The notes: generated by a model from the letters alone, not told the origin. A stretch of 64,000 bases of DNA from Desulfoglaeba alkanexedens ALDC (GCF_005377625.1 NZ_CP040098.1:806001-870000); one strand, 5' to 3'; positions 1 through 15,744 are shown, numbered from the stretch's first letter. Made by a program: numbers and translations.

Positions 1-161
1 GTTCTTGCCCCGCTTCCGTCCCCGCGCTAGGTTTGCATCATAACCCGCCGGCGCTCCACCGTGGATACATTCACCAAGGGGCGCCGGGTGCGCGGCGCGT
101 TTCCCTGTGGCGCCTGCAGGTGACGGCTCAATCGATGGGCGCGCCAACCCAAATGGGCATC

Positions 162-190
162 CACAGATTACACAGATTGACACAGATTAA
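162..190. repeat. CACAGATT short tandem repeat
   Basis: Three successive copies of CACAGATT(A/G)A with a 9-10 base period, upstream of the first gene. Runs of this kind recur between genes in many unrelated bacterial genomes. Its role is unknown. The rest of positions 1-337 shows no convincing gene: two short overlapping reading frames there have no ribosome-binding site and no recognisable motif. Confidence 0.6.
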
Positions 191-337
191 AGAATCAAGG
201 AGCTCGATGGAAAATACAGTCATCTTTGGCCATCGCTGAAATCTGTGGAATAGTACATTCCGGTCGTGACCGTGAGATACGCTATCTTTTCAACAAATTC
301 CACGTAAAACCCACAAATGACGTTGTGCGGTTGAACT

Positions 338-748
338 ATGGCAAGACTCAACTTTATCGTGATCATGATATTACTTCTGCTGGGGCAATGTGTATGGGCC
401 GAGGAGGTTCCATATACTCTTGAGGATAGAGATAGACTCATTAGAGTTGAGGCTAAAATAGAGGACATAGACAAAAGATTTGAACAGATAGACAAACGAT
501 TTGAGCAGGTCGAGAGGCGCATAGAGAGGCTGGAAAACGTAATGATCTGGGGATTCGGGTTATTATTTACCACGATGATAGGATTGCTTGGTTTTGTATT
601 GTGGGACAGAAGAACAGCGCTGTCGCCTGCAATAAGGAAGAATAAGGAATTAGAAGAAAGAAACGATAAGATTGTGAAGGCATTGAAGGAATATGCCTAT
701 AAAGAACCAAAACTGGCAGAGATACTTCGTAATGTGGGTCTAATGTAA
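338..748 (+). CDS. small membrane-anchored coiled-coil protein, unknown function
   Basis: A 136-residue protein that I cannot name. It begins with a hydrophobic signal-like segment (about residues 5-20, ending CVWAEE). A charged coiled coil follows (about 30-68) with the heptad unit IDKRFEQ repeated almost exactly at protein and DNA level. A transmembrane helix spans about 70-90 (GFGLLFTTMIGLLGFVLW), and the tail is basic and helical. The predicted layout is a periplasmic coiled coil held in the inner membrane. Base composition is clearly more AT-rich than the neighbours, which suggests a different origin. No strong ribosome-binding site precedes the ATG, so the start is uncertain. It stands alone, followed at once by dispersed repeats. 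Similar signal/coiled-coil/TM hypotheticals occur in other anaerobes, from memory. The coding call is fairly firm and the function is unknown. Confidence 0.7.
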   Translation: MARLNFIVIMILLLLGQCVWAEEVPYTLEDRDRLIRVEAKIEDIDKRFEQIDKRFEQVERRIERLENVMIWGFGLLFTTMIGLLGFVLWDRRTALSPAIRKNKELEERNDKIVKALKEYAYKEPKLAEILRNVGLM

Positions 749-756
749 ACTTTCCA

Positions 757-813
757 CCTTGTTCCCAAGCCGGACCATCCACCTTGTTCCCAACCTCCAG
801 CTTGGGAACGAGG
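757..813. repeat. family A palindromic repeats
   Basis: One degraded and one good copy of the dispersed palindrome (TTCCCAA...CAGCTTGGGAA) that recurs throughout this window. It could fold as a hairpin at the 3' end of transcripts from the upstream gene. Confidence 0.75.
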
Positions 814-815
814 GG

Positions 816-1041
816 AAATAATAGACCTAATATTTGATGCCAAGTTCTATTTCCCCTCCCCTTGTGGGAGGGGATTAAGGGGAGGGGAATGTAACTGATT
901 GACATACGTTAATTTTCTCACCCTCACCCCAACCCTCTCCTTCCCCTCCCCTTGTGGGAGGGGATTAAGGGGAGGGGGAGAGAGGGATTTTTTGACCTTC
1001 GTTAACCTTTTTGCTTAAGGTCTCCACTTTAGAACGCTGCC
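816..1041 (-). repeat. full-length family B modular repeat element
   Basis: In reverse orientation this matches 42236-42433 along its whole length. Both share the outer arms (AGCGTTC...AAGTGGAGACCTTAA at one end, GGCATCAAATATTAGGTC at the other) and the inner two-hairpin core. Here the first hairpin module is replaced by, or carries, a second copy of the CCCCTCCCCTT...AAGGGGAGGGG hairpin, so the elements are modular. No reading frame fits inside. It resembles a non-autonomous mobile repeat (MITE-like), but no transposase source is visible here. Confidence 0.7.
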
Positions 1042-1092
1042 AAAAGTTTGCGGAGCTCCGACGGGCCCGGACGAGCCTCCATCGGGAGGACC

Positions 1093-3003
1093 TTATCGGC
1101 GCCCCTGAGCGTAGCCGATAGTCACCAGGGCGGCCTTTATCTCGTCGAGAATGGCTGGGTCGTCGATGGTGGCCGGGATCTTGTAGTCCTTGTTGTCGGC
1201 GATTTTCTGGATCGTGCCGCGCAGGATCTTGCCCGAGCGGGTCTTTGGCAGCCGCTTGACCACCGTGGCCTTCTTGAAGCTGGCCACCGGGCCGATGCGG
1301 TCACGCACCATCTGGATCAGTTCATTGACGATTTCTTCGTGGGGACGGGTGACACCGGCCTTGAGCACCACGAATCCCACCGGCACCTGCCCCTTGAGAT
1401 CGTCTTCAACCCCCAGCACGGCGCACTCGGCCACATCCGGATGGTCGCTCAGGACCTCCTCCATGGCGCCGGTGCTCAGGCGGTGACCGGCCACGTTGAT
1501 GATGTCGTCGGTGCGGCCCATGACGAACACGTACCCGTCCTCGTCGATGAAGCCGGCGTCGGCCGTCTTGTAGTAGCCGGGAAATTCTTCCAGATAACTT
1601 TTGATGAGGCCCTGGTCGTTGTTGTACAGGGTAACCAGGGCCCCCGGCGGCAGGGGGAGCTTGACCACCAGGGCGCCGATCTGGCCGGCCGGCAGGGGCT
1701 GGTTGTTGGGGTCCACCACCTGGAGGTTCCATCCCGGCGCCGGCTTGGTGGCGGACCCCTCCTTCACCGGGTACGCGTGCAGGCCCAGGCAGTTGGCGCA
1801 GATGGCCCAGCCGGTCTCGGTCTGCCACCAGTGATCGATCACCGGCACCTTCAGTGCTTTTTGAGCCCATTTGAGGGTGTCTGGATCGAGCCGCTCGCCG
1901 GCCAAAAAGAGGGCGTAAAAGTTCGAAAGATCGTATTTTTGCATCAGCTCGGCCCGCGGGTCCTCACGTTTTATGGCCCGGAGGGCGGTAGGCGCGGTGA
2001 ACATGGTGCGCACCTTGTGTTGCCCGATCACCCGCCAGAACACCCCGGCATCCGGCGTGCCCACCGGCTTGCCTTCGAAAAGGATGGTGGTACAGCCGCG
2101 CAGCAGGGGGGCATACACGATGTACGAATGGCCCACCACCCAGCCGACATCCGAGGCGGCCCAGTAGACATCGCCGGCATCCACGTTGTATATAGCCTTC
2201 ATGCTCCAGTTGAGGGCCACGGCATGCCCGCCGTTGTCCCGCACCACTCCCTTGGGTAGGCCGGTGGTGCCCGAGGTGTAGAGGATGTAAAGGGGATCGG
2301 TGGCCGCCACCGGCACGCAGTCGGCCGGTTTGGCCGCTGCCACGACCTCCTTCCAGTCCACGTCACGCCCGGGCGTGAGGGGTGCGGTTTCCATGGGACG
2401 CTGGTAGATGATGCAGCTTTGGGGTTGGGCGTCGGTGTTGGACATGCGGATCGCTCCATCCAGCAGCGGCTTGTAGGGGATGACCCGCTTGACCTCGATG
2501 CCGCAGGAGGCTGAAACGATCACCTTGGGCTTCGCATCGTTGATCCGGGTGGCCAGTTCGTTGGAGGCGAATCCACCGAAGACCACCGAGTGGATGGCGC
2601 CGATGCGGGCGCAGGCCAGCATGGCGATGACGGCCTCCGGGATCATGGGCATGTAGATCAGCACCCGATCCCCCTTGACCACGCCGCGATCGGCCAACGC
2701 GCCGGCGAACAGCGCCACTTCGTCCCGCAACTGACGGTAGGTGTACGTTTTGATTGTGTCGGTCACCGGACTGTCATAGATCATGGCCGCCTGATCGGCC
2801 CGTCCGCCTTCCACGTGGCGGTCCAACGCATTGTAGCAGGTGTTGAGCTCTCCGCCGACAAACCAGCGATAAAACGGCGGATTACTGTCGTCCAGGACCT
2901 TGTCCCACCGCTTGTACCAGTGGATCGCTTCCGCCGCATCGCCCCAGAACCCATTGGGATCCTTGATCGATCTTTCCCATGCTTCGACATACGGGTCGCT
3001 CAT
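1093..3003 (-). CDS. prpE: propionyl-CoA synthetase (acetyl-CoA synthetase family)
   Basis: A 636-residue AMP-forming acyl-CoA synthetase that activates a short-chain acid, most likely propionate, with ATP and CoA in the cytoplasm. Visible signatures are the N-terminal ACS domain, the adenylate-binding loop YTSGTTGLPKG at 242-252, the PrpE-like stretch YWAASDVGWVVGHSYIVY, WWQTETG, GRTDDIINVAGHRLS, and the C-terminal PKTRSGKILRGT with the catalytic/acetylatable lysine near residue 592. The start at MSDPYVEAW is chosen because AGGAG sits just upstream. The longer frame runs into repeats and has no such site. It is a monocistronic leftward gene with repeats on both sides. Acetate activation by a close paralogue is the main alternative. 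Family assignment is firm; substrate is inferred from overall similarity to PrpE. Confidence 0.9.
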   Translation of the reverse strand: MSDPYVEAWERSIKDPNGFWGDAAEAIHWYKRWDKVLDDSNPPFYRWFVGGELNTCYNALDRHVEGGRADQAAMIYDSPVTDTIKTYTYRQLRDEVALFAGALADRGVVKGDRVLIYMPMIPEAVIAMLACARIGAIHSVVFGGFASNELATRINDAKPKVIVSASCGIEVKRVIPYKPLLDGAIRMSNTDAQPQSCIIYQRPMETAPLTPGRDVDWKEVVAAAKPADCVPVAATDPLYILYTSGTTGLPKGVVRDNGGHAVALNWSMKAIYNVDAGDVYWAASDVGWVVGHSYIVYAPLLRGCTTILFEGKPVGTPDAGVFWRVIGQHKVRTMFTAPTALRAIKREDPRAELMQKYDLSNFYALFLAGERLDPDTLKWAQKALKVPVIDHWWQTETGWAICANCLGLHAYPVKEGSATKPAPGWNLQVVDPNNQPLPAGQIGALVVKLPLPPGALVTLYNNDQGLIKSYLEEFPGYYKTADAGFIDEDGYVFVMGRTDDIINVAGHRLSTGAMEEVLSDHPDVAECAVLGVEDDLKGQVPVGFVVLKAGVTRPHEEIVNELIQMVRDRIGPVASFKKATVVKRLPKTRSGKILRGTIQKIADNKDYKIPATIDDPAILDEIKAALVTIGYAQGRR

Positions 3004-3071
3004 CGTAACTCTCCTTTTTGCTTGGGTTGGCCGTGAAAAGCATTGTAAGCGCATCAGCTTCGTTTCCCCTC

Positions 3072-3410
3072 GTTCCCAAGCTGGAGCTTGGGAACAAGAG
3101 TGGATGGTGGAGCTTGGGAACAAGGTCAAAAAATCCCCCTCTCCCTTGATGGGAGAGGGTTGGGGTGAGGGTGAGAACATTAACGTATGTCAATCAGTTA
3201 CATTCCCCTCCCCTTAATCCCCTCCCACAAGGGGAGGGGAAATAGAATTCCCCTCGTTCCCAAGCCATGGCTTGGGAACGGACTCATGGGAATCGAAGCT
3301 GGAGCTTCTGCAACAGGTGTGTTCCCAAGCTGGAGCTTGGGAACAAGGTGGAAACCGACAATGTTCCGTTGACCCTCATCGCCGGCAAGCCGGCTCCTAC
3401 AGGGCATGAG
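3072..3410. repeat. repeat mosaic A-B-A plus family C (left copy)
   Basis: A tightly packed block filling the gap between prpE and the radical SAM gene. It holds family A palindromes near 3072-3120 and 3255-3345, the family B two-hairpin core at about 3123-3245, and a family C unit (CGCCGGCAAGCCGGCTCCTAC) near 3379-3400. The same mosaic, with one extra A unit, stands at 9838-10242. Confidence 0.75.
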
Positions 3411-3473
3411 TCGCTACTCAAGTGCCGTTCGCAAACCGCCCGTGCATCCGGTAGAAGAGCAGCCGTTGGTGGA

Positions 3474-4604
3474 TCAGAGGTGGAACTCCTCGTCTCCCAC
3501 GCAGAGCCGACCGTTGCGCCCTTCAACGGCCGCGGAGGCTTCCGGGCGCACGTCCAACCCGTCCCATCCCCACTTTCGCGTCCAGTATGTCACATTTTCA
3601 CGCCGAGGGCCAAGGGCTTCACTCAAAAGATGCGATGGAACGTAGAGCACGGCGGATCGCTGATTTCGTGACCGGATCGGCGCGGATCCGTCCGGCAGGG
3701 CAACGGCATCTCCCCCTTCAGGGGAAGCGGGAGTCTTCGCACGCCCCTCCATGACCGCGTCCACCCGGTTACGCCACCACCGGACTCGAACCAGGTAGCC
3801 GAAGGCCGGGTGGCAGGGGCCGGCAAGGATCGTCCCCGGTCGATCCAGTTCGGGGTCCGCGTGCAAACCCATGCGGGCGACCCTGATGCCGTTTTTCAGG
3901 AAGCGATCGAAAGCGAAGGCGCAGCGTTCGACGGCCTGATCCAGCGAAAGCGGCCGGTACCGGCCGCTTTCGAACCAGCGGGCGAGCCCGGTGTCCCTCA
4001 AGACCAGTGCGGGGTAGAGGCGAACGAAATCCGGCCGAAGCGCGACGGCCTTCGAAATCGTTCCTTGGAAGCGGCTCGGGGTTTCGCCCGGAAGGCCCAC
4101 CATGAGCTGAATGCCGAGCGCCCAGCCGGCCGCACGGACGCGCCGCGCCGCCGCTTCCACCGCCGCCGCCCGGTAGCCTCTTCGCGATGCGAAGAGCACG
4201 GCGTCGGAAAGGCTCTGGGCGCCCAGCTCCACCGTTCGAATCGGGAAGGCCTGCAGCCGCCGGACCGTCTCCTCAGAAACGGCATCCGGGCGCGTGGAAA
4301 AACGAATGCCCGTGAATACCCCGTCGCGTACACCGGCCGCGGCGGCCTCCAGCAGACCGTCCAGGAGAGCTTCCGGTAGCGCCGTAAACGTTCCGCCGTA
4401 GAAGGCTATTTCTCCGGGAATCCCGGATCGCCGGGACCGTTCGGCCCGGTCTTCGATAGCGGCGCGCCCCCGCAAGAGGTCCGACCCCTCCCGCCCTCCC
4501 GAACCGGTCACCGCGTACTGGTTGCAGTAGACACAGCGGTACGGGCAGCCGGCATGCGGCAGAAAGACGGGATAGATTCGAGGGCGATTCTGTCGGTCCC
4601 ACAT
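3474..4604 (-). CDS. Elp3-like radical SAM protein (left copy)
   Basis: A 376-residue radical SAM enzyme. The iron-sulfur/SAM motif C20-x3-C24-x2-C27 (CPYRCVYC) is intact, followed by a glycine-rich SAM motif (FYGGTFTAL). The sequence GIQLMVGLPGET is typical of the Elp3/HemN-like branch. No acetyltransferase domain follows, unlike true Elp3. Related genes sit next to rnc in Desulfobacterota, but their substrate is not known to me. It lies downstream of rnc on the same strand, 86 bases away, and is probably co-transcribed with it. The right copy (10313-11446) differs at several residues and is one residue longer. Both reading frames are intact. Family is firm; reaction unknown. Confidence 0.85.
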   Translation of the reverse strand: MWDRQNRPRIYPVFLPHAGCPYRCVYCNQYAVTGSGGREGSDLLRGRAAIEDRAERSRRSGIPGEIAFYGGTFTALPEALLDGLLEAAAAGVRDGVFTGIRFSTRPDAVSEETVRRLQAFPIRTVELGAQSLSDAVLFASRRGYRAAAVEAAARRVRAAGWALGIQLMVGLPGETPSRFQGTISKAVALRPDFVRLYPALVLRDTGLARWFESGRYRPLSLDQAVERCAFAFDRFLKNGIRVARMGLHADPELDRPGTILAGPCHPAFGYLVRVRWWRNRVDAVMEGRAKTPASPEGGDAVALPDGSAPIRSRNQRSAVLYVPSHLLSEALGPRRENVTYWTRKWGWDGLDVRPEASAAVEGRNGRLCVGDEEFHL

Positions 4605-4690
4605 GGTTTCCGCCGTTTACGGCTCGCGGCCGCTCCTCCAGGATGTGTCCGGGAATCGAGAGACTCCGGCGCCCGAAGGCGCCCCGCAGC

Positions 4691-5422
4691 CTACGACATC
4701 GCTTCCCCGACCCTTTCCTTCAACACTTCCAGGGCCTTTCGAGCCGCTTCCTGCTGGGCGTCCTTTTTGCTCTTTCCCACGCCGCGGCCCAGGAGCACCT
4801 CACCGAGCGACACCCGCATGGTGAAGGTCTTTTCGTGGTCGGGCCCTTCTTCGGACTCCATTTCATAGGTGGGCACCGTCTTGAAACGGGCCTGAGTCCA
4901 TTCCTGGAGCTGGGTCTTATAATCCTTGTCCAGCCGGCTCAGAGGGTCATCCAGGTGCTCCGCATCGAGGTACCGTGAAAAAAGGCGCGAAACCAGTTGA
5001 AATACCGCGTCGAAGCCGCCGTCCAGGTAGACGGCGCCAAGAAGCGCTTCCAGGCTGTCGGCGAGCAGCGACGCCTTCTCCCTGCCGCCGGTAAGTTCTT
5101 CCCCTTTTCCCAGGAGCAAGCGCCTGCCCAGGCCCAGTTCCGAAGCGGTTTGCGCCAGCTGCCGTTCGTTCACGATGGCCGAACGCATGCGCGAAAGGTC
5201 CCCTTCCAGTCTTTCAGGAAACCGCTCGATCAACAAGTGGCTCACGGCCAGCCCCAGCACCGCGTCGCCGAGGAATTCCAGCGTCTCGTTGTCGGAAGGC
5301 CGGCTGTCCTGATGTTCGTGGACGAAGCTCCGGTGAGTGAGCGCCTGCCGCAGCAGCGCCGGATCGCGAAACCTGTAGCCCACGGCATTTTGAACCGCCT
5401 GAAGATCTCTTGCGTGATCCAT
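4691..5422 (-). CDS. rnc: ribonuclease III (left copy)
   Basis: A 243-residue RNase III that cleaves double-stranded RNA in rRNA and mRNA maturation. The signature NETLEFLGDAVLGL is at 45-58, with metal-binding E49 and D53. The second acidic cluster SLEALLGAVYLDGG lies near residue 125, and a C-terminal double-stranded-RNA-binding domain starts near 165 (DYKTQLQEWTQ...GVGKSKKDAQQEAARKAL). Length matches the family. It is divergent from the gmhB-like gene, with the shared promoter region in between. A second intact copy at 11533-12264 differs by at least one substitution (S to W in the stretch FQLVxRLFSRY). Two near-identical rnc genes in one chromosome are unusual and come from the duplication. 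Confidence 0.92.
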   Translation of the reverse strand: MDHARDLQAVQNAVGYRFRDPALLRQALTHRSFVHEHQDSRPSDNETLEFLGDAVLGLAVSHLLIERFPERLEGDLSRMRSAIVNERQLAQTASELGLGRRLLLGKGEELTGGREKASLLADSLEALLGAVYLDGGFDAVFQLVSRLFSRYLDAEHLDDPLSRLDKDYKTQLQEWTQARFKTVPTYEMESEEGPDHEKTFTMRVSLGEVLLGRGVGKSKKDAQQEAARKALEVLKERVGEAMS

Positions 5423-5541
5423 GGGTTTCTGCTACCTGTATCATCGGTTGAGCCTTCAATAAGCCGCGCGAAGAAACAATGCATTGTTTCTTCCACAGTG
5501 AGGATTGTCAAGCCGCGGGATCGGGAGAGGACAACTCTTCG

Positions 5542-5976
5542 ATGATCATCTGCTCCGGCCGCCCTGCCGCCGCTTTCACCTCGTTTGTTTTCCTAGACAG
5601 AGACGGGATCCTGAACGTCGACCGCTCCGATCATGTGAAGCACTGGAGCGAATTCCAATTCTATCCCGATGCGCTGGAAGCTCTCAGGAGGCTTCGCCGG
5701 CGAAAGATCGAAGTGATCCTGGTGAGCAACCAGTCGGCGCTGAACCGCGGCCTGACTCAGTGGAACGATTTCCTGGACATCCACCGCAACATGCTCCAAC
5801 GCATCCGCGCCGAAGGCGGCGACCTTCTCGCCGCCTTCTACTGCCCGCACCGCCCGGACGAAGCCTGCGACTGCCGAAAGCCTCGGCCCGGAATGCTTCG
5901 GGCGGCGGCGGACCTTTACGGAGTGCCGCTCCATGCCACCACCATGATGGGTGACAAGGTGACCGTAGGCCACTAA
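5542..5976 (+). pseudogene. gmhB: truncated gmhB-like HAD phosphatase (left copy)
   Basis: The first 139 codons match the intact gene at 12384-12965. They include the HAD motif DRDG, the SNQ motif and the CPH...CDC zinc loop. The frame then leaves homology at the island border and stops after five foreign codons (VTVGH). It lacks the last catalytic acidic motif (D142 of GDKFTD) and the C-terminal quarter, so it should be inactive. The start used (MIICSG) lies about ten bases after GGGAGAGG; a longer start 63 bases upstream is less likely. This broken gene marks the left edge of the accessory island. Confidence 0.85.
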
Positions 5977-5987
5977 CAATAAGGCAA

Positions 5988-6392
5988 GTGGGCACAAAGA
6001 CAGTGAATCGCGACGATTTCCGCGCGGCGGCGCGCCGCTGGTATCGAGATGGCTGCCATTTGTTGCAGGATGACCGGTACCCGGGGGCATCCCATGCATT
6101 CGGTCTGGCGGCGGAGTGCGCGTTGAAGCACAGCATGGAACGCCTTCCGGGGGCCCAGCGGGAACTGCCGCGGCGTCACCTCCCCGAGCTGCTGAATGAC
6201 GCCAGACTCTGGTTGTCGGGCCGGCGGCATCGAGGCCTGACCCAACTACTCGGCTGGAGGGATTACATGCACGGATGGCAGATGGACAACCGCTACTGGG
6301 CGGACGATTGCTTCGATGCGCAGGGCTGTCGTCTCTTTCGTGATCACGCCCGCCGAACCCTGCAGGCCGCCGGCGTGGAGGTTGCCACGTAA
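5988..6392 (+). CDS. small HEPN-like protein, first gene of island trio
   Basis: A 134-residue, helix-rich basic protein. The segment YPGASHAFGLAAECALKH (31-48) resembles the second helix of HEPN-type proteins. R115-LFRD-H120 fits the R-x4-6-H pattern of HEPN ribonucleases, inside the helix CRLFRDHARRTL. HEPN proteins often act as RNA-cutting toxins or as nucleotide-handling partners in defence and toxin-antitoxin systems. This assignment rests on pattern only. The start is uncertain: GTG at 5988 or GTG at 6003, neither with a good ribosome-binding site, and the frame is closed upstream by a stop at 5952-5954. The stop overlaps the next start by one base (TAATG), so the two genes are translationally coupled. 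Confidence 0.6.
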   Translation: MGTKTVNRDDFRAAARRWYRDGCHLLQDDRYPGASHAFGLAAECALKHSMERLPGAQRELPRRHLPELLNDARLWLSGRRHRGLTQLLGWRDYMHGWQMDNRYWADDCFDAQGCRLFRDHARRTLQAAGVEVAT

Positions 6393-7705
6393 TGCATGCT
6401 GACGTGCGCTTCGATACGGCGCTCCCGCGCCTTGTGCAGGCAGTGCGGGAAGCGGTTCCGGACGTCGATTTCCGCGACATCAGGGTCGTCCGGGACATGC
6501 AGGGAAGGCTGTTCCTCGTTGTGCCGAACGACTGGGATACCGGGACGATCTCCGACCTTCGCCAGCGCCTGTCGGCCGCGCTCGGTCCGTACAGCCCCGG
6601 CGAGGAGGCGGGGGCGGCCCGCTTCAATGATGTGCTGGCCGGCAAGGAGCTCCTCGCCGAGCGTGCGCTGCTGGTCTGGGTGGACGACGCCCCCGTCCAT
6701 CTGATCGAGCGCCGGGCCGTCGGGCAGGACTGGGCGTTGCCGCCGGAGCCCGCGTCCGCCCACCCGCCGCGCTTCGTCTTCTACAGCCTGAAAGGCGGCG
6801 TCGGCCGTAGCACCGCCCTCATGCTCTGGGGTCGGCATCTGGCCGAACGAGGGCAAAGCGTGCTCCTCGTGGACCTCGACCTCGAAGCCCCTGGGCTCGG
6901 GGCGCATCTCCTGCCTTCGGACGGGCGCCCGCTGTTCGGGACCTTGGACTGGCTGGTGGAGGATCTGGTCGGGAACGCCGACCGCACACCGGCCGCGGAC
7001 CTGATCGCCGACAGCCCCCTCTCCCACGCGCCCGGCCTGTGGGTCGCACCGGCGCTCGGCGCCGAGGCCGCCCGGCATCCCGGCAACGTCCTTGCGAAGC
7101 TCGCCCGCGCCTATCTCGAAAGCGACGAAGGCGCTGGATTCGCGAGCCGTCTGAGCCGCCTAATCTGTGCCCTGGAACGGCACCTTAGTCCCGACGTAGT
7201 GCTGATCGACAGCCGCGCCGGGCTTCACGAGAGCGTCGCCGCCAATCTGCTGCACCTGGATGCCGAGGTGCTGCTCTTTGCGGTGGATCTGCCCCCCACC
7301 TGGGAAGGCTACCGTTATCTGTTCGGCCACCTGCGGCAATTGGCTCCGGATATGGTGGGCGGCGGAGGCTTCGACGCCTGGCGTGCGCGCCTGCGGATGA
7401 TCCAGGCGCGCGCGGCCGGGACCGAGGCCGAGAAGCGCCGCTTCTCTTCCAGCGCCTTCGGCGTGTGGGTGGATACGCTCTACGACGAAGCGCCCCCGGA
7501 TCAGGGGGATGCCTTCTCGTTCGACGAGCACGACGAAGCGGCGCCGCACTGGCCGCTGACCATCCTTCGCAGTGAGCGCTTCGAAGCATTTCATCCCCTG
7601 GAGCAGCTGGCGGACGTCGGCGAGCGCGCCATCGGCGAGGTGTTCGGCGAGCTGTTCGCCGGCCTCGACGAGCGCCTCCTGGCGCTGAAGGAAGACAGCG
7701 AATGA
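6392..7705 (+). CDS. KGGVGR-variant ParA/MinD-like ATPase
   Basis: A 437-residue SIMIBI-class ATPase. The N-terminal 125 residues form a separate region with no motif I can name. The deviant Walker A loop KGGVGRST is at 134-141: the signature lysine K134 is kept, but the usual second lysine is arginine (R139). Then come LLVDLDLEAPGLG (about 158-170) and Walker B VVLIDSRAG (about 269-277). The C-terminal half is helical and unassigned. From memory, NCBI families carry the name KGGVGR-motif variant AAA ATPase for such proteins, and relatives often occur in mobile or conflict-type loci. The gene overlaps both neighbours by one to four bases, so it belongs to the same operon. ATP binding is well supported; its target and role are unknown. 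Confidence 0.8.
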   Translation: MHADVRFDTALPRLVQAVREAVPDVDFRDIRVVRDMQGRLFLVVPNDWDTGTISDLRQRLSAALGPYSPGEEAGAARFNDVLAGKELLAERALLVWVDDAPVHLIERRAVGQDWALPPEPASAHPPRFVFYSLKGGVGRSTALMLWGRHLAERGQSVLLVDLDLEAPGLGAHLLPSDGRPLFGTLDWLVEDLVGNADRTPAADLIADSPLSHAPGLWVAPALGAEAARHPGNVLAKLARAYLESDEGAGFASRLSRLICALERHLSPDVVLIDSRAGLHESVAANLLHLDAEVLLFAVDLPPTWEGYRYLFGHLRQLAPDMVGGGGFDAWRARLRMIQARAAGTEAEKRRFSSSAFGVWVDTLYDEAPPDQGDAFSFDEHDEAAPHWPLTILRSERFEAFHPLEQLADVGERAIGEVFGELFAGLDERLLALKEDSE

Positions 7706-9222
7706 GTCAACGCGAATTCCCGCTCGCCGAGCTGCACTGCGCGTTCGAGGACATCCCGGACGAGGTGGCCCATCATCAGACTGAGCCGCCGCCGTTGCGT
7801 GAGGTGTATGTCGTCCCGGGCCATGAGAAGGCGCTGAACCCGGAGACACCGGTAGTGGTCGGCGACCGCGGCACGGGCAAGAGCTTCTGGAGCGCGGCGC
7901 TCAACGGCGAGGAGACCCGCCTGCTGATCGGCCGGGAGCTGCGCAAGTTGCGCATGGACACCGTCCGCGTGAGCTGGGGCTTCTCGGCCGCCACGGACAA
8001 CCGCTGGCATCCCTCCCGGCGCGTGCTGCGCAGCTTGCGCGGCCAAGGTTTCGAGGCCGAGGACATCTGGCGGGCGGTGCTGCTCCACCATCTGGCCGGC
8101 GCCTGCGGCCTGGGGGGCTGGCCCGCAGGCGCGGACTGGGCCGAGCGCGTGCGGCGCGTGGCGGAAGCACCGGAACTCGAGGAGCGCCTCCTGGCCGAAG
8201 CGCACGACCGGCTGCAGCGGCTGGGTAAGCGCCATCTCTTCGTCTTCGATGCCCTGGACCGCCTCGGTGACGACTGGAGGGCGATCCGCGACCTGCTGCA
8301 GGGCCTGCTGCGCGTCTGCCTGGACCTGCGCGCCTATCGCGCGATCCGAACCAAGCTCTTCCTGCGGCCGGATATGTGGGAGGATCAGGCCGTATCGCAG
8401 TTCCCGGACGCCTCCAAGCTCCATCACGGCCGAGTGCTCCTGGAGTGGCGACGGGTCGATCTCTACGGCCTGCTCTGGCACTGGCTGGGCAACCACCCCG
8501 GGGCCGGCGCGGCGTTTCGCGACTGGTGCAAGGACGCGCACGGTCATGAATTCGAACCGATTCGGATCGGCAGCGAAACGGTGTACGCGGTGCCCGCCGC
8601 CCTGCGCACGGACCAAGACGAGCAGGCAAAGCTGCTCGAGGACATCGCCAGCCGCTACATGGGCCGCGACCGCCGCCGAGGCAGGACGTACACGTGGCTG
8701 CCCACCCACCTGGCGGACGCAAAAGGCCAGGTCAGCCCCCGGAGCTTCCTTCTCGCCCTGAAGCACGCGCATACCGCAACGCAGGATCGCCTGGCCGGCG
8801 GCACCCCGCTGCTGCATTACGAGGGCATCAAGCAGGGCGTCCAGGAGGCCTCCCGGATACGCCTTAAAGAGCTGCAGGAGGATTACCCCTGGATCCAGCA
8901 GGTGCTGGCACCGCTCCAGGGCATGACCGTCCCCTGTACCGCTAAGGAACTCCGGCAGCGCTGGCATGCCGAGGGCGTGGTCCAGGCCATCAGCAGCCCG
9001 CCGCTCGACAATGCGGAGCTCAAGGCCGACGACAGGGCCTACCTGCCGCCGCACGCCCTCGAGTACGCGCCGCCAGGCCGGTCACCGGAGGACGCCCTGA
9101 TACAGGCCGTGATTGAAATCGGCGTCCTGAGCCGCATGGCAGACGGGCGCCTGAACATGCCGGACCTCTTCCGCGTCGCCGCCGGCATCGGACGCCGCGG
9201 CGGCGTGAGGGCGATACGGTAG
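7702..9222 (+). CDS. P-loop ATPase, third gene of island trio
   Basis: A 506-residue protein with a classical Walker A (GDRGTGKS, 54-61) and a Walker B-like strand HLFVFDALDRLGDDW (about 178-192). The layout is an N-terminal NTPase core followed by a long helical C-terminal region (about 240-506) that may bind a partner or nucleic acid. It recalls the P-loop ATPases annotated as Sll1717-like and STAND-type proteins of bacterial conflict systems, but I cannot assign a named family with confidence. Its ATG overlaps the stop of the upstream ATPase (ATGA), which indicates coupled expression. There are no membrane segments. Composition is high-GC like the host. Confidence 0.7.
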   Translation: MSQREFPLAELHCAFEDIPDEVAHHQTEPPPLREVYVVPGHEKALNPETPVVVGDRGTGKSFWSAALNGEETRLLIGRELRKLRMDTVRVSWGFSAATDNRWHPSRRVLRSLRGQGFEAEDIWRAVLLHHLAGACGLGGWPAGADWAERVRRVAEAPELEERLLAEAHDRLQRLGKRHLFVFDALDRLGDDWRAIRDLLQGLLRVCLDLRAYRAIRTKLFLRPDMWEDQAVSQFPDASKLHHGRVLLEWRRVDLYGLLWHWLGNHPGAGAAFRDWCKDAHGHEFEPIRIGSETVYAVPAALRTDQDEQAKLLEDIASRYMGRDRRRGRTYTWLPTHLADAKGQVSPRSFLLALKHAHTATQDRLAGGTPLLHYEGIKQGVQEASRIRLKELQEDYPWIQQVLAPLQGMTVPCTAKELRQRWHAEGVVQAISSPPLDNAELKADDRAYLPPHALEYAPPGRSPEDALIQAVIEIGVLSRMADGRLNMPDLFRVAAGIGRRGGVRAIR

Positions 9223-9347
9223 CCCGTCCACTTGGTTGATGGCGGCACCCTCGCCGCTTACGACAGCGCTCAAAAAATCCGGCAGATGGCGGACATTCTG
9301 ATCCCGCTGCATGATCTGAGCGTCGGGAGGCGGAAGAGGATTCCCGC

Positions 9348-9980
9348 ATGAGCACGGACGGTGGGATGGAATCGCCCACGCCTGAAACCTCGAGCCAAAG
9401 GCAGCGAAGAAAGCACGGATACGTCTGCACCATATGCGGCCGGCGCTGGCGACGCTCCTGGCTCCTCCAATGGCAGCGCGGCTTCCGCGGCTCGGAATAC
9501 GGAACCCTTGCCGTGTCCCTTCGGTTTCTCTGCCGCGAACTCAGCAGCGCGGACCTTTCGGACAAGACCGTCGACGCCTGGCGAAAACCGGCGGCGCAGA
9601 TCCAGCGAGACGTGGCCGATTTCTGTCGGGAAGCGAAACGACTCCTCTTGGAAGAAAAGGTGGCGGGGCAAAACGCGAACCTTTCCAAACTTCAGAGTAT
9701 CAACCCCACCGTGGACGCCCTCCGAGCGCGGCTTTTCGGCTCAGGGATAAGCCACGGAGGATTCAGCCGCCGGATTTTCGACACCCTCGACACTAATTTA
9801 TCACAAGGGAGGTGTCTCACCTACATTGGCACAGAGGGGAACGGACTCATGGGAATCGAAGCTGGAGCTTCTGCAACAGGTGTGTTCCCAAGCTGGAGCT
9901 TGGGAACAAGAGTGGATGGTGGAGCTTGGGAACAAGGTCAAAAAATCCCCCTCTCCCTTGATGGGAGAGGGTTGGGGTGA
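9348..9980 (+). CDS. hypothetical protein, 3' end replaced by repeats
   Basis: A 210-codon frame with a good ribosome-binding site (AGAGG, 8 bases from ATG). Residues 1-160 look like a real helical protein: basic start, CTICGRRW at about 26-33 (a half zinc-finger-like CxxC), then DLSDKTVDAWRKPAAQIQRD and a charged helix. From about position 9833 the frame reads through family A and B repeats, giving a nonsense tail (GIEAGASATGVFP...), and it stops inside a family B hairpin. The natural C-terminus was therefore probably lost when the right border formed. It follows the island trio by 125 bases on the same strand and may be a fourth member. I do not recognise its family. Opposite-strand frames here are also open because of high GC. 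Confidence 0.45.
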   Translation: MSTDGGMESPTPETSSQRQRRKHGYVCTICGRRWRRSWLLQWQRGFRGSEYGTLAVSLRFLCRELSSADLSDKTVDAWRKPAAQIQRDVADFCREAKRLLLEEKVAGQNANLSKLQSINPTVDALRARLFGSGISHGGFSRRIFDTLDTNLSQGRCLTYIGTEGNGLMGIEAGASATGVFPSWSLGTRVDGGAWEQGQKIPLSLDGRGLG

Positions 9981-10242
9981 GGGTGAGAAAATTAACGTGT
10001 GTCAATCAGTTACATTCCCCTCCCCTTAATCCCCTCCCACAAGGGGAGGGGAAATAAAATTCCCCTCGTTCCCAAGCCATGGCTTGGGGAACGGACTCAT
10101 GGGAATCGAAGCTGGAGCTTCTGCAACAGGTGTGTTCCCAAGCTGGAGCTTGGGAACAAGAGTGGATGGTGGAGCTTGGGAACAAGGTGGAAACCGACAA
10201 TGTTCCGTTGACCCTCATCGCCGGCAAGCCGGCTCCTACAGG
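9838..10242. repeat. repeat mosaic A-B-A plus family C (right copy)
   Basis: Family A unit (9840-9937), family B core (about 9940-10060), a second near-identical A unit (10066-10190), then a family C unit near 10218-10240. The two A units share the same order of subparts (TCATGGGAATCGAAGCTGG, then the long palindrome), so the B core sits between direct repeats. Positions 10243-10312 hold only the 3' flank of the radical SAM gene. Confidence 0.75.
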
Positions 10243-10312
10243 GCATGAGTCGCTACTCACGTGCCGTTCGCAAACCGCCCGTGCATCCGGTAGAAGAGCA
10301 GTCGTTGGTGGA

Positions 10313-11446
10313 TCAGAGGTGGAACTCCTCGTCTCCCACGCAGAGCCGACCGTTCCGCCCTTCAACGGCCGCGGAGGCTTCCGGGCGCACGTCCAACCCG
10401 TCCCATCCCCACTTTCGCGTCCAGTATGTCACATTTTCACGCCGAGGGCCAAGGGCTTCACTCAAGAGATTCGATGGAACGTGGAGCACGGCGGATCGCT
10501 GATTTCGTGACCGGATCGGCGCGGATCCGTCCGGCAGGGCAACGGCATCTCCCCCTTCAGGGGGAGCGGGAGTCTTCGCACGCCCCTCCATGACCGCGTC
10601 CACCCGGTTACGCCACCACCGGACTCGAACCAGGTAGCCGAAGGCCGGGTGGCAGGGGCCGGCAAGGATCGTCCCCGGTCGATCCAGTTCGGGGTCCGCG
10701 TGCAAACCCATGCGGGCGACCCTGATGCCGTTTTTCAGGAAGCGATCGAAAGCGAAGGCGCAGCGTTCGACGGCCTGATCCAGCGAAAGCGGCCGGTACC
10801 GGCCGCTTTCGAACCAGCGGGCGAGCCCGGTGTCCCTCAAGACCAGTGCGGGGTAGAGGCGAACGAAATCCGGCCGAAGCGCGACGGCCTTCGAAATCGT
10901 TCCTTGGAAGCGGCTCGGGGTTTCGCCCGGAAGGCCCACCATGAGCTGAATGCCGAGCGCCCAGCCGGCCGCACGGACGCGCCGCGCCGCCGCTTCCACC
11001 GCCGCCGCCCGGTAGCCTCTTCGCGATGCTAAGAGCACGGCGTCGGAAAGGCTCTGGGCGCCCAGTTCCACCGTTCGAATCGGGAAGGCCTGGAGCCGCC
11101 GGACCGTATCCTCTGAGACGGCGTCCGGGCGCGTGGAAAAACGAATGCCCGTGAATACCCCGTCGCGTACACCGGCCGCGGCGGCCTCCAGCAGACCGTC
11201 CAGGAGAGCTTCCGGTAGCGCCGTAAACGTTCCGCCGTAGAAGGCTATTTCTCCGGGAATCCCGGATCGCCGGGACCGTTCGGCCCGGTCTTCGATAGCG
11301 GCGCGCCCCCGCAAGAGGTCCGACCCCTCCCGCCCGCCTGACCCTCCGGTCACCGCGTACTGGTTGCAGTAGACACAGCGGTACGGGCAGCCGGCATGCG
11401 GCAGAAAGGCGGGATAGATTCGAGGGCGATTCTGTCGGTCCCACAT
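10313..11446 (-). CDS. Elp3-like radical SAM protein (right copy)
   Basis: A 377-residue radical SAM enzyme, near-identical paralogue of 3474-4604. It has the same C20-x3-C24-x2-C27 cluster-binding motif and the same GLPGET region. Visible differences include A for V at residue 13, one inserted residue (GGSGGREG instead of GSGGREG), D for E in the stretch VSExTVRR, and H/N for Y/H in LxVPSxLLSEALG. The changes are scattered and conservative and the frame stays open, so both copies may still be functional. Gene order with rnc is the same as in the left copy. The substrate is unknown. Confidence 0.85.
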   Translation of the reverse strand: MWDRQNRPRIYPAFLPHAGCPYRCVYCNQYAVTGGSGGREGSDLLRGRAAIEDRAERSRRSGIPGEIAFYGGTFTALPEALLDGLLEAAAAGVRDGVFTGIRFSTRPDAVSEDTVRRLQAFPIRTVELGAQSLSDAVLLASRRGYRAAAVEAAARRVRAAGWALGIQLMVGLPGETPSRFQGTISKAVALRPDFVRLYPALVLRDTGLARWFESGRYRPLSLDQAVERCAFAFDRFLKNGIRVARMGLHADPELDRPGTILAGPCHPAFGYLVRVRWWRNRVDAVMEGRAKTPAPPEGGDAVALPDGSAPIRSRNQRSAVLHVPSNLLSEALGPRRENVTYWTRKWGWDGLDVRPEASAAVEGRNGRLCVGDEEFHL

Positions 11447-11532
11447 GGTTTCCGCCGTTTACGGCTCGCGACCGCTCCTCCAGGATGTGTCCGGGAATCG
11501 AGAGACTCCGGCGCCCGAAGGCACCCCGCAGC

Positions 11533-12264
11533 CTACGACATCGCTTCCCCGACCCTTTCCTTCAAGACTTCCAGGGCCTTTCGAGCCGCTTCCTGCTGGG
11601 CGTCCTTTTTGCTCTTTCCCACGCCGCGGCCCAGGAGCACCTCACCAAGCGACACCCGCATGGTGAAGGTCTTTTCGTGGTCGGGCCCTTCTTCGGACTC
11701 CATTTCATAGGTGGGCACCGTCTTGAAACGGGCCTGAGTCCATTCCTGGAGCTGAGTCTTGTAATCCTTGTCCAGCCGGCTCAGAGGGTCATCCAGGTGC
11801 TCCGCATCGAGGTACCGTGAAAAAAGGCGCCAAACCAGTTGAAATACCGCGTCGAAGCCGCCGTCCAGGTAGACGGCGCCAAGAAGCGCTTCCAGGCTGT
11901 CGGCGAGCAGCGACGCCTTCTCCCTGCCGCCGGTAAGTTCTTCCCCTTTTCCCAGGAGCAAGCGCCTGCCCAGGCCCAGTTCCGAAGCGGTTTGCGCCAG
12001 CTGCCGTTCGTTCACGATGGCCGAACGCATGCGCGAAAGGTCCCCTTCCAGTCTTTCAGGAAACCGCTCGATCAACAAGTGGCTCACGGCCAGCCCCAGC
12101 ACCGCGTCGCCGAGGAATTCCAGCGTCTCGTTGTCGGAAGGCCGGCTGTCCTGATGTTCGTGGACGAAGCTCCGGTGAGTGAGCGCCTGCCGCAGCAGCG
12201 CCGGATCGCGAAACCTGTAGCCCACGGCATTTTGAACCGCCTGAAGATCTCTTGCGTGATCCAT
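11533..12264 (-). CDS. rnc: ribonuclease III (right copy)
   Basis: A 243-residue RNase III with the same catalytic motif (NETLEFLGDAVLGL, E49/D53) and C-terminal dsRNA-binding domain as the left copy. Tryptophan replaces serine in FQLVWRLFSRY, near the hinge between catalytic and binding domains. This copy is linked to the intact gmhB-like gene and pckA, so its right flank is the unbroken chromosomal arrangement. It diverges from gmhB across a spacer of about 120 bases. Confidence 0.92.
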   Translation of the reverse strand: MDHARDLQAVQNAVGYRFRDPALLRQALTHRSFVHEHQDSRPSDNETLEFLGDAVLGLAVSHLLIERFPERLEGDLSRMRSAIVNERQLAQTASELGLGRRLLLGKGEELTGGREKASLLADSLEALLGAVYLDGGFDAVFQLVWRLFSRYLDAEHLDDPLSRLDKDYKTQLQEWTQARFKTVPTYEMESEEGPDHEKTFTMRVSLGEVLLGRGVGKSKKDAQQEAARKALEVLKERVGEAMS

Positions 12265-12383
12265 GGGTTTCTGCTACCTGTATCATCGGTTGAGCCTTCA
12301 ATAAGCCGCGCGAAGAAACAATGCATTGTTTCTTCCACAGTGAGGATTGTCAAGCCGCGGGATCGGGAGAGGACAACTCTTCG

Positions 12384-12965
12384 ATGATCATCTGCTCCGG
12401 CCGCCCTGCCGCCGCTTTCACCTCGTTTGTTTTCCTAGACAGAGACGGGATCCTGAACGTCGACCGCTCCGATCATGTGAAGCACTGGAGCGAATTCCAG
12501 TTCTATCCCGATGCGCTGGAAGCTCTGAGGATGCTTCGCCGCCGAAAGATCGAAGTGATCCTTGTGAGCAACCAGTCGGCGCTGAACCGCGGCCTGACTC
12601 AGTGGAACGATTTCCTGGACATCCACCGCAACATGCTCCAACGCATCCGCGCCGAAGGCGGCGACGTTCTCGCCGCCTTCTACTGCCCGCACCGCCCGGA
12701 CGAAGCCTGCGACTGCCGGAAGCCTCGGCCCGGAATGCTTCGGGCGGCGGCGGACCTTTACGGAGTGCCGCTCCATGCCGTCGCCATGATGGGTGACAAG
12801 TTCACCGATCTGGAAGCCGCCCGGGCCGCCGGATGCCTCCCGGTCTGGATCCGGCGGCCCGGAACGGAAGCCGCCGCCGAACCGCCTCTTGAAAGCGCGC
12901 CGAACATCGCCGTGTACGGTTCGCTTGCCGAAGCCGTGGAGGCGCTTTTCACCCTTACCCTGTAA
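12384..12965 (+). CDS. gmhB: HAD phosphatase, heptose-bisphosphate phosphatase type
   Basis: A 193-residue HAD-superfamily phosphatase of the GmhB/histidinol-phosphatase type. It most likely removes the 7-phosphate from D-glycero-manno-heptose 1,7-bisphosphate for LPS core synthesis in the cytoplasm. Motifs are nucleophile D19 and acid D21 (LDRDG), SNQ at 62-64, the zinc loop C101-P-H103...C109-D-C111, K113, and G137-D138...D142. The start MIICSG follows GGGAGAGG by about ten bases; an upstream ATG adds 21 non-conserved residues. It is divergent from rnc, and pckA follows 21 bases after its stop. A truncated copy sits at 5542-5976. Confidence 0.85.
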   Translation: MIICSGRPAAAFTSFVFLDRDGILNVDRSDHVKHWSEFQFYPDALEALRMLRRRKIEVILVSNQSALNRGLTQWNDFLDIHRNMLQRIRAEGGDVLAAFYCPHRPDEACDCRKPRPGMLRAAADLYGVPLHAVAMMGDKFTDLEAARAAGCLPVWIRRPGTEAAAEPPLESAPNIAVYGSLAEAVEALFTLTL

Positions 12966-12986
12966 ACGGATCTGGGGAGGCAACCC

Positions 12987-14588
12987 GTGACACGGAACAC
13001 CCCGGCCGCATGCCAACCGACGGAGCCCCTCGAAGCCCAGGGAATCGTCAATTACACTCGAGTGTTCTACAACCTGTCGGAACCCCGGCTCTACGAGCAG
13101 GCCATCCGGCGCCGGGAGGGACTGCTCGCTCAATCCGGCCCTCTGGTCGTCCGTACCGGCGCCTACACGGGGCGTGCCCCCAACGACAAGTTCCTGGTTC
13201 GGGAACCGGGAAGCGAAGACAAGATCTGGTGGGGCGAAGTGAACCGCCCTTTCACCGCACGAGACTTCGATCGGGTCCACCACCGGCTGCTGGCCTACCT
13301 CCAGGGACGAGAAATCTACGTTCAGGACTGTTACGCCGGAGCCGACCCCGACTACCGGGTGCCCATCCGAGTGATCACGGAAACGGCATGGCAGAGCCTC
13401 TTCGCCCGAAACATGTTCCTGCGGATCGAAGACTCGGATGAACTGAACTCCTTCCGCCCCGAATTCATCCTGATCGCAGCTCCCAACTTCCACGCCAACC
13501 CCGAGGTGGACCACACTCGGTCCGAAGCGTTCATCCTGGTCCACTTCGGGAAGAAGCTCATCATCATCGGCGGCACCGGCTACGGCGGCGAGATCAAGAA
13601 ATCCATCTTCACCGTGATGAACTTCGCCCTGCCCCAGAAAGGGGTTTTTCCCATGCACTGTTCGGCCAACGCGGGAAAGAACGGCGATACGGCCATCTTC
13701 TTCGGGCTTTCCGGAACGGGCAAGACCAGCCTTTCCGCCGACCCGGAACGCATCCTGGTGGGCGACGATGAACACGGCTGGAGCGACAACGGCATCTTCA
13801 ACTTCGAAGGCGGCTGCTACGCCAAGGTGATCCGGCTGTCACCCGAAGCCGAACCCCAGATCTACCAATGTACACGGCGGTTTGGAACCCTCCTGGAAAA
13901 CGTGGCCATCGACGTCGAGACGCGCCGGATCGACCTGGACGACGACAGCCTCACGGAAAACACCCGGGCCGCCTACCCCATTCACTTTATCGACAATGCA
14001 TCGCCCACTGGGATCGCCGGTCACCCCCGAAACATCATCATGCTGACCTGCGACGCCTTCGGCGTGCTGCCGCCCATCGCTCGGCTGACCCCCGAACAGG
14101 CCATGTACCATTTTCTTTCGGGCTACACCGCCAAAGTAGCCGGGACCGAAGCCGGGATCGTGGAACCGCAGGCGACCTTCAGCACCTGTTTCGGGGCCCC
14201 ATTCATGGCCCTGCCGCCCACGGTCTATGCCGGACTCCTGGGTGAACGGATGAAGAAACACCGGTCCGTGTGCTGGCTCATCAACACGGGCTGGTCCGGC
14301 GGCGGCTACGGTGTGGGGGAACGCATCCGGATCGAGTACACGAGGAGGATGGTGAGCGCCGCCCTGGGGGGCGAACTGGAATCGGTCCCCTTCGAAGAAG
14401 AACCCTTCTTCGGCCTGTCGGTACCGACCCGCTGCCCCGGAGTGCCGGACCAGGTGCTCCGGCCCGCCGACACCTGGCCGGACCGAGACGCGTACCGGCG
14501 GCAAGCGGAAGACCTGAAGAACCGTTTCCGGAATAACTTCAAGGCCTTCGAAAGCCAGGTGGAAGACGCCTTAAGGCGCGTGATGTAG
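12987..14588 (+). CDS. pckA: phosphoenolpyruvate carboxykinase (ATP)
   Basis: A 533-residue ATP-dependent PEP carboxykinase that interconverts oxaloacetate and PEP for gluconeogenesis. Family landmarks are the oxaloacetate-site region (TGAYTGRAPNDKF), the PEPCK P-loop GLSGTGKTSLSADP, the metal-binding region DDEHGWSDNGIFNFEGGCYAK, ENTRAAYP and the C-terminal NTGWSGGGYGVG. Length is typical. The GTG start is supported by GGGGAGG six bases upstream. It lies 21 bases after gmhB, so read-through is possible. Growth on C3/C4 acids, as implied by prpE, would need this enzyme. Confidence 0.95.
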   Translation: MTRNTPAACQPTEPLEAQGIVNYTRVFYNLSEPRLYEQAIRRREGLLAQSGPLVVRTGAYTGRAPNDKFLVREPGSEDKIWWGEVNRPFTARDFDRVHHRLLAYLQGREIYVQDCYAGADPDYRVPIRVITETAWQSLFARNMFLRIEDSDELNSFRPEFILIAAPNFHANPEVDHTRSEAFILVHFGKKLIIIGGTGYGGEIKKSIFTVMNFALPQKGVFPMHCSANAGKNGDTAIFFGLSGTGKTSLSADPERILVGDDEHGWSDNGIFNFEGGCYAKVIRLSPEAEPQIYQCTRRFGTLLENVAIDVETRRIDLDDDSLTENTRAAYPIHFIDNASPTGIAGHPRNIIMLTCDAFGVLPPIARLTPEQAMYHFLSGYTAKVAGTEAGIVEPQATFSTCFGAPFMALPPTVYAGLLGERMKKHRSVCWLINTGWSGGGYGVGERIRIEYTRRMVSAALGGELESVPFEEEPFFGLSVPTRCPGVPDQVLRPADTWPDRDAYRRQAEDLKNRFRNNFKAFESQVEDALRRVM

Positions 14589-14671
14589 GCGGGCGGCGCG
14601 TGAGTCGTCCGTCGTGAGTCGTGCAAAGCCCCCTTTGTCATTGAAGGTGGCTTGGACAAAAGGAAAATACC

Positions 14672-15343
14672 ATGTTTTTTCCGCCGTTTCTCATTCTGTT
14701 CGCCTTCCTGTTTCTCTTTCTGCTCTTTTTCGTTTTCGCGCTGGTCAAATTCGGCCTCTTCACACTCGCTTTCGCCCGACTCGGCATCCCCCCGGAACAA
14801 ATGTTCTCGCTCCTTTTCCTCTGCATCGTGGGGAGCATGATCAATATCCCCGTAAAACGCATTCCCTTGGAAGAGGAACCCGAAGAATTGGAGACGGTGG
14901 CCTTTTTCGGGATCCGCTACCGGCCGCCCCGGTGGCGGAAGCCCCGGGAAACGGTCATCGCCGTAAACGTCGGAGGCGCCATCATCCCCGCCTGCATTTC
15001 GCTCTACCTTCTTGCCAACGCTCAACACCCCATCCGCATGCTGATCGCCACCGCCCTCGTGACGTGGGTCGTGCACCGCATGGCACGTCCCGTGCCCGGG
15101 ATGGGGATCGCCACGCCCATGTTCATCCCACCGCTTGTGGCGGCGCTCGCCGCCCTCGTCATCAACCCCGCCTGGGCTCCCCCCACCGCCTACGTCGCCG
15201 GAACTCTGGGGACCCTCATCGGAGCGGACATCCTCAATCTCGATCGCATCAAAACCCTGCGCGCCCCGGTCGCCTCCATCGGAGGGGCCGGCACCTTCGA
15301 CGGCATATTCCTCACCGGCATCCTCGCCGTGCTTCTCGCGTAG
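14672..15343 (+). CDS. DUF1614 family membrane protein
   Basis: A 223-residue multi-pass membrane protein. A strongly hydrophobic, phenylalanine-rich start (MFFPPFLILFAFLFLFLLFF) is followed by helices near 40-55, 95-115 and 120-175 and a C-terminal helix. The conserved-looking stretches GIATPMFIPPLVAALAALVI and YVAGTLGTLIGADILNL match my memory of DUF1614, a family of unknown function in deltaproteobacteria, firmicutes and archaea. It is preceded by pckA with an 83-base gap and followed by family C repeats. Confidence 0.75.
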   Translation: MFFPPFLILFAFLFLFLLFFVFALVKFGLFTLAFARLGIPPEQMFSLLFLCIVGSMINIPVKRIPLEEEPEELETVAFFGIRYRPPRWRKPRETVIAVNVGGAIIPACISLYLLANAQHPIRMLIATALVTWVVHRMARPVPGMGIATPMFIPPLVAALAALVINPAWAPPTAYVAGTLGTLIGADILNLDRIKTLRAPVASIGGAGTFDGIFLTGILAVLLA

Positions 15344-15354
15344 CCCGAACCTCG

Positions 15355-15575
15355 CCGGCACATCGCCGGCAAGCCGGCTCCTACAGGGGATCGCCCCGGT
15401 TTTCCGTTATCGGTAGGAGCGGGCTTGCCTGCGACCCGTAAAACCGACAACACCCCGTTGACCCTGGTCGCCGGCAAGCCGGCTCCTACGGGAGATGAGA
15501 TGCAGCTTTCTGTGGGAGCGGCGCTATTGTGGGAGCGGCGCCCTCGCCGCGATAAACCAACCTCAGTGCCCCACC
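15355..15575. repeat. family C repeats (GTAGGAGC type)
   Basis: Alternating short inverted units: CGCCGGCAAGCCGGCTCCTAC at about 15365 and 15468, GTAGGAGCGGGCTTGCCTGC near 15414, and two GTGGGAGCGGCG units near 15510-15555 ending in GCCGCGAT. They resemble the intergenic REP elements known from Pseudomonas. They fill the gap between the DUF1614 gene and tRNA-Glu. Confidence 0.75.
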
Positions 15576-15625
15576 AAACCCATCGGCCCGAGGCGGGCCT
15601 CCCACAACCATCACTCCGATAACAC

Positions 15626-15659
15626 AAAAGGCCCACGGCGGTCCGCCGTGGGCCTTTTT
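15626..15659 (-). terminator. rho-independent terminator (bidirectional)
   Basis: A GC-rich perfect stem (GGCCCACGGCGG/CCGCCGTGGGCC) is flanked by A-runs on the left and T-runs on the right. On the minus strand it ends tRNA-Glu transcription; on the plus strand it would stop read-through from DUF1614. Confidence 0.85.
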
Positions 15660-15666
15660 CATGGCC

Positions 15667-15744
15667 TGGCGTCCCCAACCGGATTTGAACCGGTGTTGCC
15701 GGCGTGAAAGGCCGGTGTCCTGGACCGGGCTAGACGATGGGGAC
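15667..15744 (-). tRNA. tRNA-Glu (TTC)
   Basis: A 78-base cloverleaf on the minus strand including an encoded CCA. The acceptor stem is GTCCCCA/TGGGGAC, the anticodon loop is CTTTCAC between CCGGC and GCCGG, and the T arm is GGTTCAAATCC. The anticodon TTC reads Glu codons. Confidence 0.95.

Follow-up and report, generated by a model that had tools for sequence, protein, structure and literature searches.

The PDC class of candidate defence systems was found by 'guilt-by-embedding' and is mostly unvalidated (PMC12988326). The literature that we searched, preprints lying outside it, contained no experimental paper on one of these candidates, the three-gene PDC-M28, or on KGGVGR ATPases in such a role, and no activity demonstrated for any PDC-M28 member. 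Passages of the BREX survey and of the DefensePredictor paper do not describe the trio, though both papers mention HEPN effectors. HEPN proteins have a canonical Rx4-6H motif at the end of helix 3 and, when a conserved acidic residue is present, carry it in helix 2 (PMC3710099). In those of the AbiV and AF0298 type the usual histidine is missing; the basic residue is retained, and a different histidine is conserved in an insert between helices 2 and 3 (PMC3710099). HEPN genes of the MAE_18760 family are found beside ParA/Soj ATPases in dyads (Anantharaman 2013), and BrxC and the Avs-type proteins are known STAND or ORC/Cdc6-like ATPases. In P4-like satellites, the position between int and psu is an antiviral hotspot (PMC9122126).

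Here we analyze a trio of genes in a 64,000-nucleotide stretch of the Desulfoglaeba alkanexedens ALDC genome (NZ_CP040098.1:806001-870000; hereafter the window). We consider it probable that this trio, a PDC-M28 locus, belongs to a mobile candidate anti-phage system in which an infection-triggered switch formed by two ATPases would release a HEPN effector.

Identity and insertion site of the trio

The window contains three real ORFs on the plus strand, gene A (5988-6392, with a GTG start), gene B (6392-7705), and gene C (7702-9222). A and B overlap by 1 base (TAATG, 6390-6394) and B and C by 4 bases (7702-7705), as the sequence-only reading of this DNA had described. The genes encode, respectively, a predicted HEPN-fold protein of 134 aa, a KGGVGR-variant SIMIBI (ParA/MinD/ArsA-like) ATPase of 437 aa, and a Sll1717-family P-loop ATPase of 506 aa with a predicted STAND/ORC-Cdc6-like fold. 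In this order, the proteins match the PADLOC-DB 2.0.0 models PDC-M28A (PDLC04558; E-value 4.6e-22), PDC-M28B (6.2e-117), and PDC-M28C (4e-158). Because all three match, the trio is not nameless, although the earlier reading could not assign it to a named system; judged by these profile matches, it is a member of the catalogued candidate system PDC-M28. The three components and the tight gene order are common to both, with no visible difference, and the window trio is an ordinary member from a little-sampled lineage.

Two copies of a chromosomal block flank the trio, an arrangement that had also been read from the sequence. The left copy (3072-5965) carries a radical SAM gene, rnc, and a truncated HAD gene; in the right copy (9884-12807) the HAD gene is intact (12321-12965) and is followed by pckA. 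These 2.9-kb copies are 98.5% identical over their main 2.6 kb, and the left HAD copy diverges from the right one at ~5965, ~22 bases upstream of A. All four relatives examined in detail have a single block copy, in which HAD adjoins pckA with no trio between them, and we therefore take the arrangement to be an insertion in the window lineage. The G+C content of the trio genes is 0.68-0.70, versus 0.58-0.68 in the flanks. The second copy could stem from a tandem duplication or from homologous integration of a relative's DNA.

Just outside the module, on the plus strand, are two joined gene fragments (9251-9790) that are 93-94% identical to ~2.318-2.321 Mb of the same chromosome. They are joined exactly at 9444/9445, their source stretches lie ~2.9 kb apart at 2.32 Mb (L091, 3808-7218), and the pair looks like a copy of the 2.32-Mb region that lost an internal part. 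We rejected an ORF at 9348-9980 as a fourth module gene, as it is a fragment of a ~450 aa protein that is present in nearly all relatives and has a second copy at 2.32 Mb. The edges of the duplicated blocks and the neighborhood of acs hold clusters of short, dispersed repeats, both direct and inverted (845-977, 3024-3380, and 9836-10193), with related copies near 2.3176 Mb of the same genome. No other defence gene was seen adjoining the trio in the window, and inspection (rather than a profile scan) of the window ORFs in positions 1-16000 revealed no recognizable PglZ or BrxC/PglY core gene.

Predicted folds and candidate active sites

The AlphaFold model of A is helical (pLDDT 88), and its closest PDB matches are HEPN proteins, namely 1ufb (Z 13.1), 2hsb (AF0298; 12.9), and the sacsin HEPN domain (12.6), with Csm6 (Z about 9) and AbiV (8.6) further down. 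A Z near 13 is weak on its own for helical bundles, but the top of the match list is consistently HEPN. A sequence search of the PDB with the A and C profiles yielded nothing useful; the sole match of the A profile, a designed repeat protein, was discarded as spurious. Pfam PF05168 matches some A homologs, down to 4.9e-05. Against Pfam HEPN_AbiV, A scores 14.4 bits, below the family cut-off of 27.1 (E 0.042), so we did not file it as AbiV. Thus the modeled fold of A is HEPN, in agreement with the helical, HEPN-like protein proposed from sequence.

The active site proposed along with that fold fared less well. An R-x4-H motif had been read in A, and the letters are there (R115 and H120), but both residues lie in the last helix of the model (111-127) and neither is conserved across homologs, and we reject this pair as the active site. 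Nor did we find a conserved canonical Rx4-6H motif among the A homologs. Across 19 homologs, R17, L25, A34, E43, C44, K47, R102, and Y103 are invariant, and D21, G39, H64, and W97 are near-invariant, with H64 at least 90% conserved. E43 (codon 6114-6116, plus strand, as are the others), a conserved acidic residue accompanied by C44 and K47, falls in the second helix (31-51) of the model; H64 (6177-6179), a candidate alternative catalytic histidine, is in the loop that follows; and R102, an invariant basic residue next to Y103 (6291-6296), comes just ahead of the last helix. A thus has the pattern of AbiV and AF0298-type proteins, which resemble it in having a HEPN fold, no canonical Rx4-6H, a histidine after helix 2 (here H64), and a later conserved basic residue (here R102); it differs from them in its sub-cut-off match to HEPN_AbiV and in its partners, two NTPases. 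From these alignments, E43, H64, and R102 agree with the active site, built on an alternative histidine, that has been proposed for AbiV and AF0298, and we infer that they may serve as one. Catalysis by A is not certain, because the canonical motif is missing.

B matches the family of KGGVGR-motif variant ATPases (NF047398; 182.4 bits against a cut-off of 90, E 1.1e-53), and its SIMIBI core aligns with ArsA, MinD, and ParA. It was matched essentially only through this core; the N-terminal domain of ~120 aa, in which R34, D35, and G38 are invariant, had no match. The deviant Walker A sequence KGGVGRST (6791-6814, plus strand) is near-invariant in its KGGVGR portion among B homologs, with K134 invariant and R139 always in place of the usual P-loop lysine; the homologs also keep DLDLE-PG and D-x-R-x-G elements. 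Against the ParA partition family NF041546, whose P-loop is KGGxGK[ST], B scores 20.8 bits versus 180, and R139 occupies the position of the lysine. As this lysine is replaced, ATP hydrolysis by B is uncertain. Separately, we noticed that KGGVGR ATPase domains open other multidomain proteins on three phage-type contigs (L069, L073, and L074), in one case with a second P-loop region; the ATPase is therefore reused outside the M28 trio.

C matches the Sll1717-family P-loop ATPases (NF047389; 83.3 bits against a cut-off of 75). Its model (pLDDT 89) matches archaeal STAND-type ATPases (2qen, Z 13.8), CED-4 (13.0), plant NLRs, ORC/Cdc6 (Cdc6, 12.2), TnsC, Avs3 (10.8), and BrxC (10.3), all with moderate Z values of 10-14. 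On the basis of this model, C is a predicted AAA+ ATPase of the STAND/ORC-Cdc6 type with intact Walker motifs: a Walker A GDRGTGKS (7861-7884, plus strand) with K60 invariant, and a Walker B region FDALD (8245-8259, plus strand; residues 182-186) with D183 invariant. Its homologs also conserve K218-x-F-x-R222-x-D224, and the predicted elements of its C-terminal region make a winged helix probable. C is like BrxC and the Avs-type STAND or ORC/Cdc6 ATPases in fold, but it has a far shorter chain and B as its partner, and no BREX core proteins were seen in the window locus. Hence both nucleotide-binding loops picked out beforehand, KGGVGRST in B and GDRGTGKS in C, belong to recognized NTPase families, and structure prediction and profile comparison together give a HEPN fold for A, a SIMIBI core for B, and a STAND/ORC-Cdc6 fold for C. 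The label 'sensor or switch' is a fair inference for C, given that fold, and plausible for B.

The same features allow a different division of labor, which is the main rival to our reading and which we regard as unlikely. The trio would still be a defence module, with A as a non-catalytic HEPN adaptor that binds RNA, nucleotides, or protein, and the B-C pair as the effector, acting for example on phage DNA. The missing Rx4-6H motif fits such an adaptor, and an ORC/Cdc6/TnsC/BrxC-like fold with a probable winged helix is typical of DNA-handling ATPases. However, H64 and R102 are 90-100% conserved just where an AbiV/AF0298 alternative site is expected, and AbiV, itself a HEPN protein without the canonical motif (PMC3710099), is titled in the PDB as an RNase of an antiphage system.

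Distribution, defence embedding, and fused relatives

Scanning viral contigs with an alignment of C homologs returned 13 loci (a single-protein C scan returned none), and A, B, and C occur in this order in all 13. Several of these phage-type contigs were confirmed by their flanks, which encode an O-like replication protein, NinB, RusA, an endolysin, a repressor, or a terminase. The trio is also present in 11 of the 14 plasmid loci examined; on three Streptomyces plasmids (L037, L039, and L040), an M28C-like protein without an M28B neighbor represents a solo C lineage. Mirror-tree distance correlations of A, B, and C over 30 loci gave r values of 0.84, 0.80, and 0.87, compared to a maximum of 0.25 in 2000 permutations; these values retain shared host ancestry, although the hosts come from several phyla and the elements are mobile. 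We conclude that A, B, and C are inherited as one unit. Spread is patchy: the trio turned up in 4 of the 60 relatives, in 13 of the 395 genomes from the phylum, where several of the matches are weak, and in none of the 14 control genomes. Cultured phage genomes had no match to B or C of the window, and E. coli had none to the window trio or to two relatives.

Two loci had peculiarities of their own. On a lambdoid prophage-type contig (L046), a gene for a NucC/PD-(D/E)XK-like nuclease (9521-10402) lies directly downstream of the trio. In another locus (L031, 2452-3876; G002), the M28C ORF opens with a stretch matching the central part of M28B (LLFAIDGDQTWSGYR), followed without a break by the Walker A of C; this join may be either a deletion remnant or an assembly join.

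Embedding in defence operons was seen in relatives' loci rather than at the window locus. In Thiodictyon, the trio lies inside a BREX-2 operon, between pglX and the phage-resistance/pglZ genes, and in Sphaerotilus it occupies the same interval; in the BREX-2 operon of Streptomyces it falls between pglW and pglX. A fourth locus (L027) has it between the DUF1156 methylase and the PLD helicase of a DUF499/DUF3780 system, and a fifth (L029) between BrxA and PglZ/BrxL remnants of a BREX-1 relic. These five loci need four label changes on the C tree (a quick tree with two long branches), so the association with defence probably arose more than once. On Enterobacter plasmids, the trio sits beside a tyrosine recombinase and, in one case, also a TIR gene.

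This distribution bears on the remaining alternatives, each of which is made less likely by the observations that run counter to it. The trio could be a toxin-antitoxin or addiction module, with a HEPN toxin and a ParA-like ATPase antitoxin, kept mainly to stabilize mobile elements. Many M28 loci are indeed plasmid-borne, and the dyad of HEPN and ParA/Soj ATPase, which like the trio places HEPN beside a SIMIBI ATPase, was proposed as a toxin-antitoxin pair in 2013 (PMC3710099). We nonetheless find this reading improbable: five loci are inside BREX-type operons, the HEPN of the dyad is of a different family (MAE_18760), and the dyad is described without a STAND-like third gene, whereas such a component was present wherever we found the HEPN-ATPase pair. 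It is less probable still that the trio is not a system in its own right but an accessory of BREX-type systems, serving to regulate them or as a fallback against BREX inhibitors. It does occur at differing positions in BREX-2, the BREX-1 relic, and the DUF499 system, and HEPN genes figure as auxiliary BREX effectors in a 2026 survey (PMC12839542), but most trio loci examined, including the window, have no BREX genes nearby, and the phage and satellite copies stand alone. Finally, we dismiss as barely credible that a ParA-like B and an ORC/Cdc6-like C serve to replicate or partition a plasmid or an integrated element. These fold families and the plasmid occurrence speak for it, but rep genes of their own are present on several plasmids that bear the trio or the fused version (one of which has its own ParB pair as well), the module has no ParB, the P-loop lysine of B is always replaced, and the genes are embedded in defence operons.

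The fused forms bear on how B and C might work together in the switch that we favor. At four loci (L067, L070, L071, and L072), a single protein of 895-945 aa joins a B-like first half to a C-like second half, and the gene for it is preceded by a HEPN-like gene that largely retains the E-C-x2-K, H, and W..RY features. A Pantoea plasmid has the same layout, and a relative of the L072 form is found in 11 of 5426 E. coli genomes, one strain of which has the fused gene split. In E. coli LD67-1, the relative of the L072 form is carried by a P4-like element, with the integrase on one side and psu on the other, so that a two-gene distant homolog of the window trio occupies the site of the antiviral cassettes of P4 satellites. 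Compared with the first of the set, the fused proteins show 19-42% identity, and they are only distantly related to the window proteins, so that joint action of B and C in the window is a reasonable but indirect conclusion.

A proposed switch and its standing

Under the mechanism that we favor, B and C would form one complex that holds A inactive. C, alone or with B, would sense an infection cue, which might be phage DNA, a phage protein, or inhibition of a neighboring restriction system, and a nucleotide-driven rearrangement of C would then pass through B to A. Once released, A would cleave RNA, with H64 and R102 replacing the usual Rx4-6H pair, and this cleavage would halt the infected cell. 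Counting against this mechanism are the Streptomyces C proteins that lack a B neighbor and the window locus, where no further defence gene was seen beside the trio. Much of what the sequence-only reading had proposed, an uncharacterized defence module with one effector and two ATP-driven sensors or switches, is retained here: one HEPN protein and two NTPases are co-conserved in phage-type loci and in diverse plasmids and chromosomes, they recur inside defence operons, and they are not a known partition or housekeeping set. What had to be given up is its nameless status and the R115/H120 pair.

More tentatively, PDC-M28 could be a type of immune switch that experiments have yet to describe, in which a STAND/ORC sensor and a SIMIBI ATPase without the P-loop lysine act together as a relay with two stages, joined in one chain in some lineages, and set free an alternative-histidine HEPN RNase in settings ranging from BREX operons to prophages and P4 satellites. 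We doubt this broader idea somewhat more than we trust it.

The family was already known as a candidate, and the window adds one member to it. Our analysis contributes the revised active-site hypothesis, predicted folds for A and C, a view of how widely the trio is embedded and carried by phages, and the fused relatives, including the one at the E. coli P4 site. Together these turn a bare candidate name into testable chemistry, as they indicate which residues of A should matter and that B and C are likely to be one unit, and the two-gene version in a known E. coli antiviral hotspot offers an easy, direct test in the laboratory. Should the HEPN protein be active, the alternative-histidine active site would extend to a widespread defence family.
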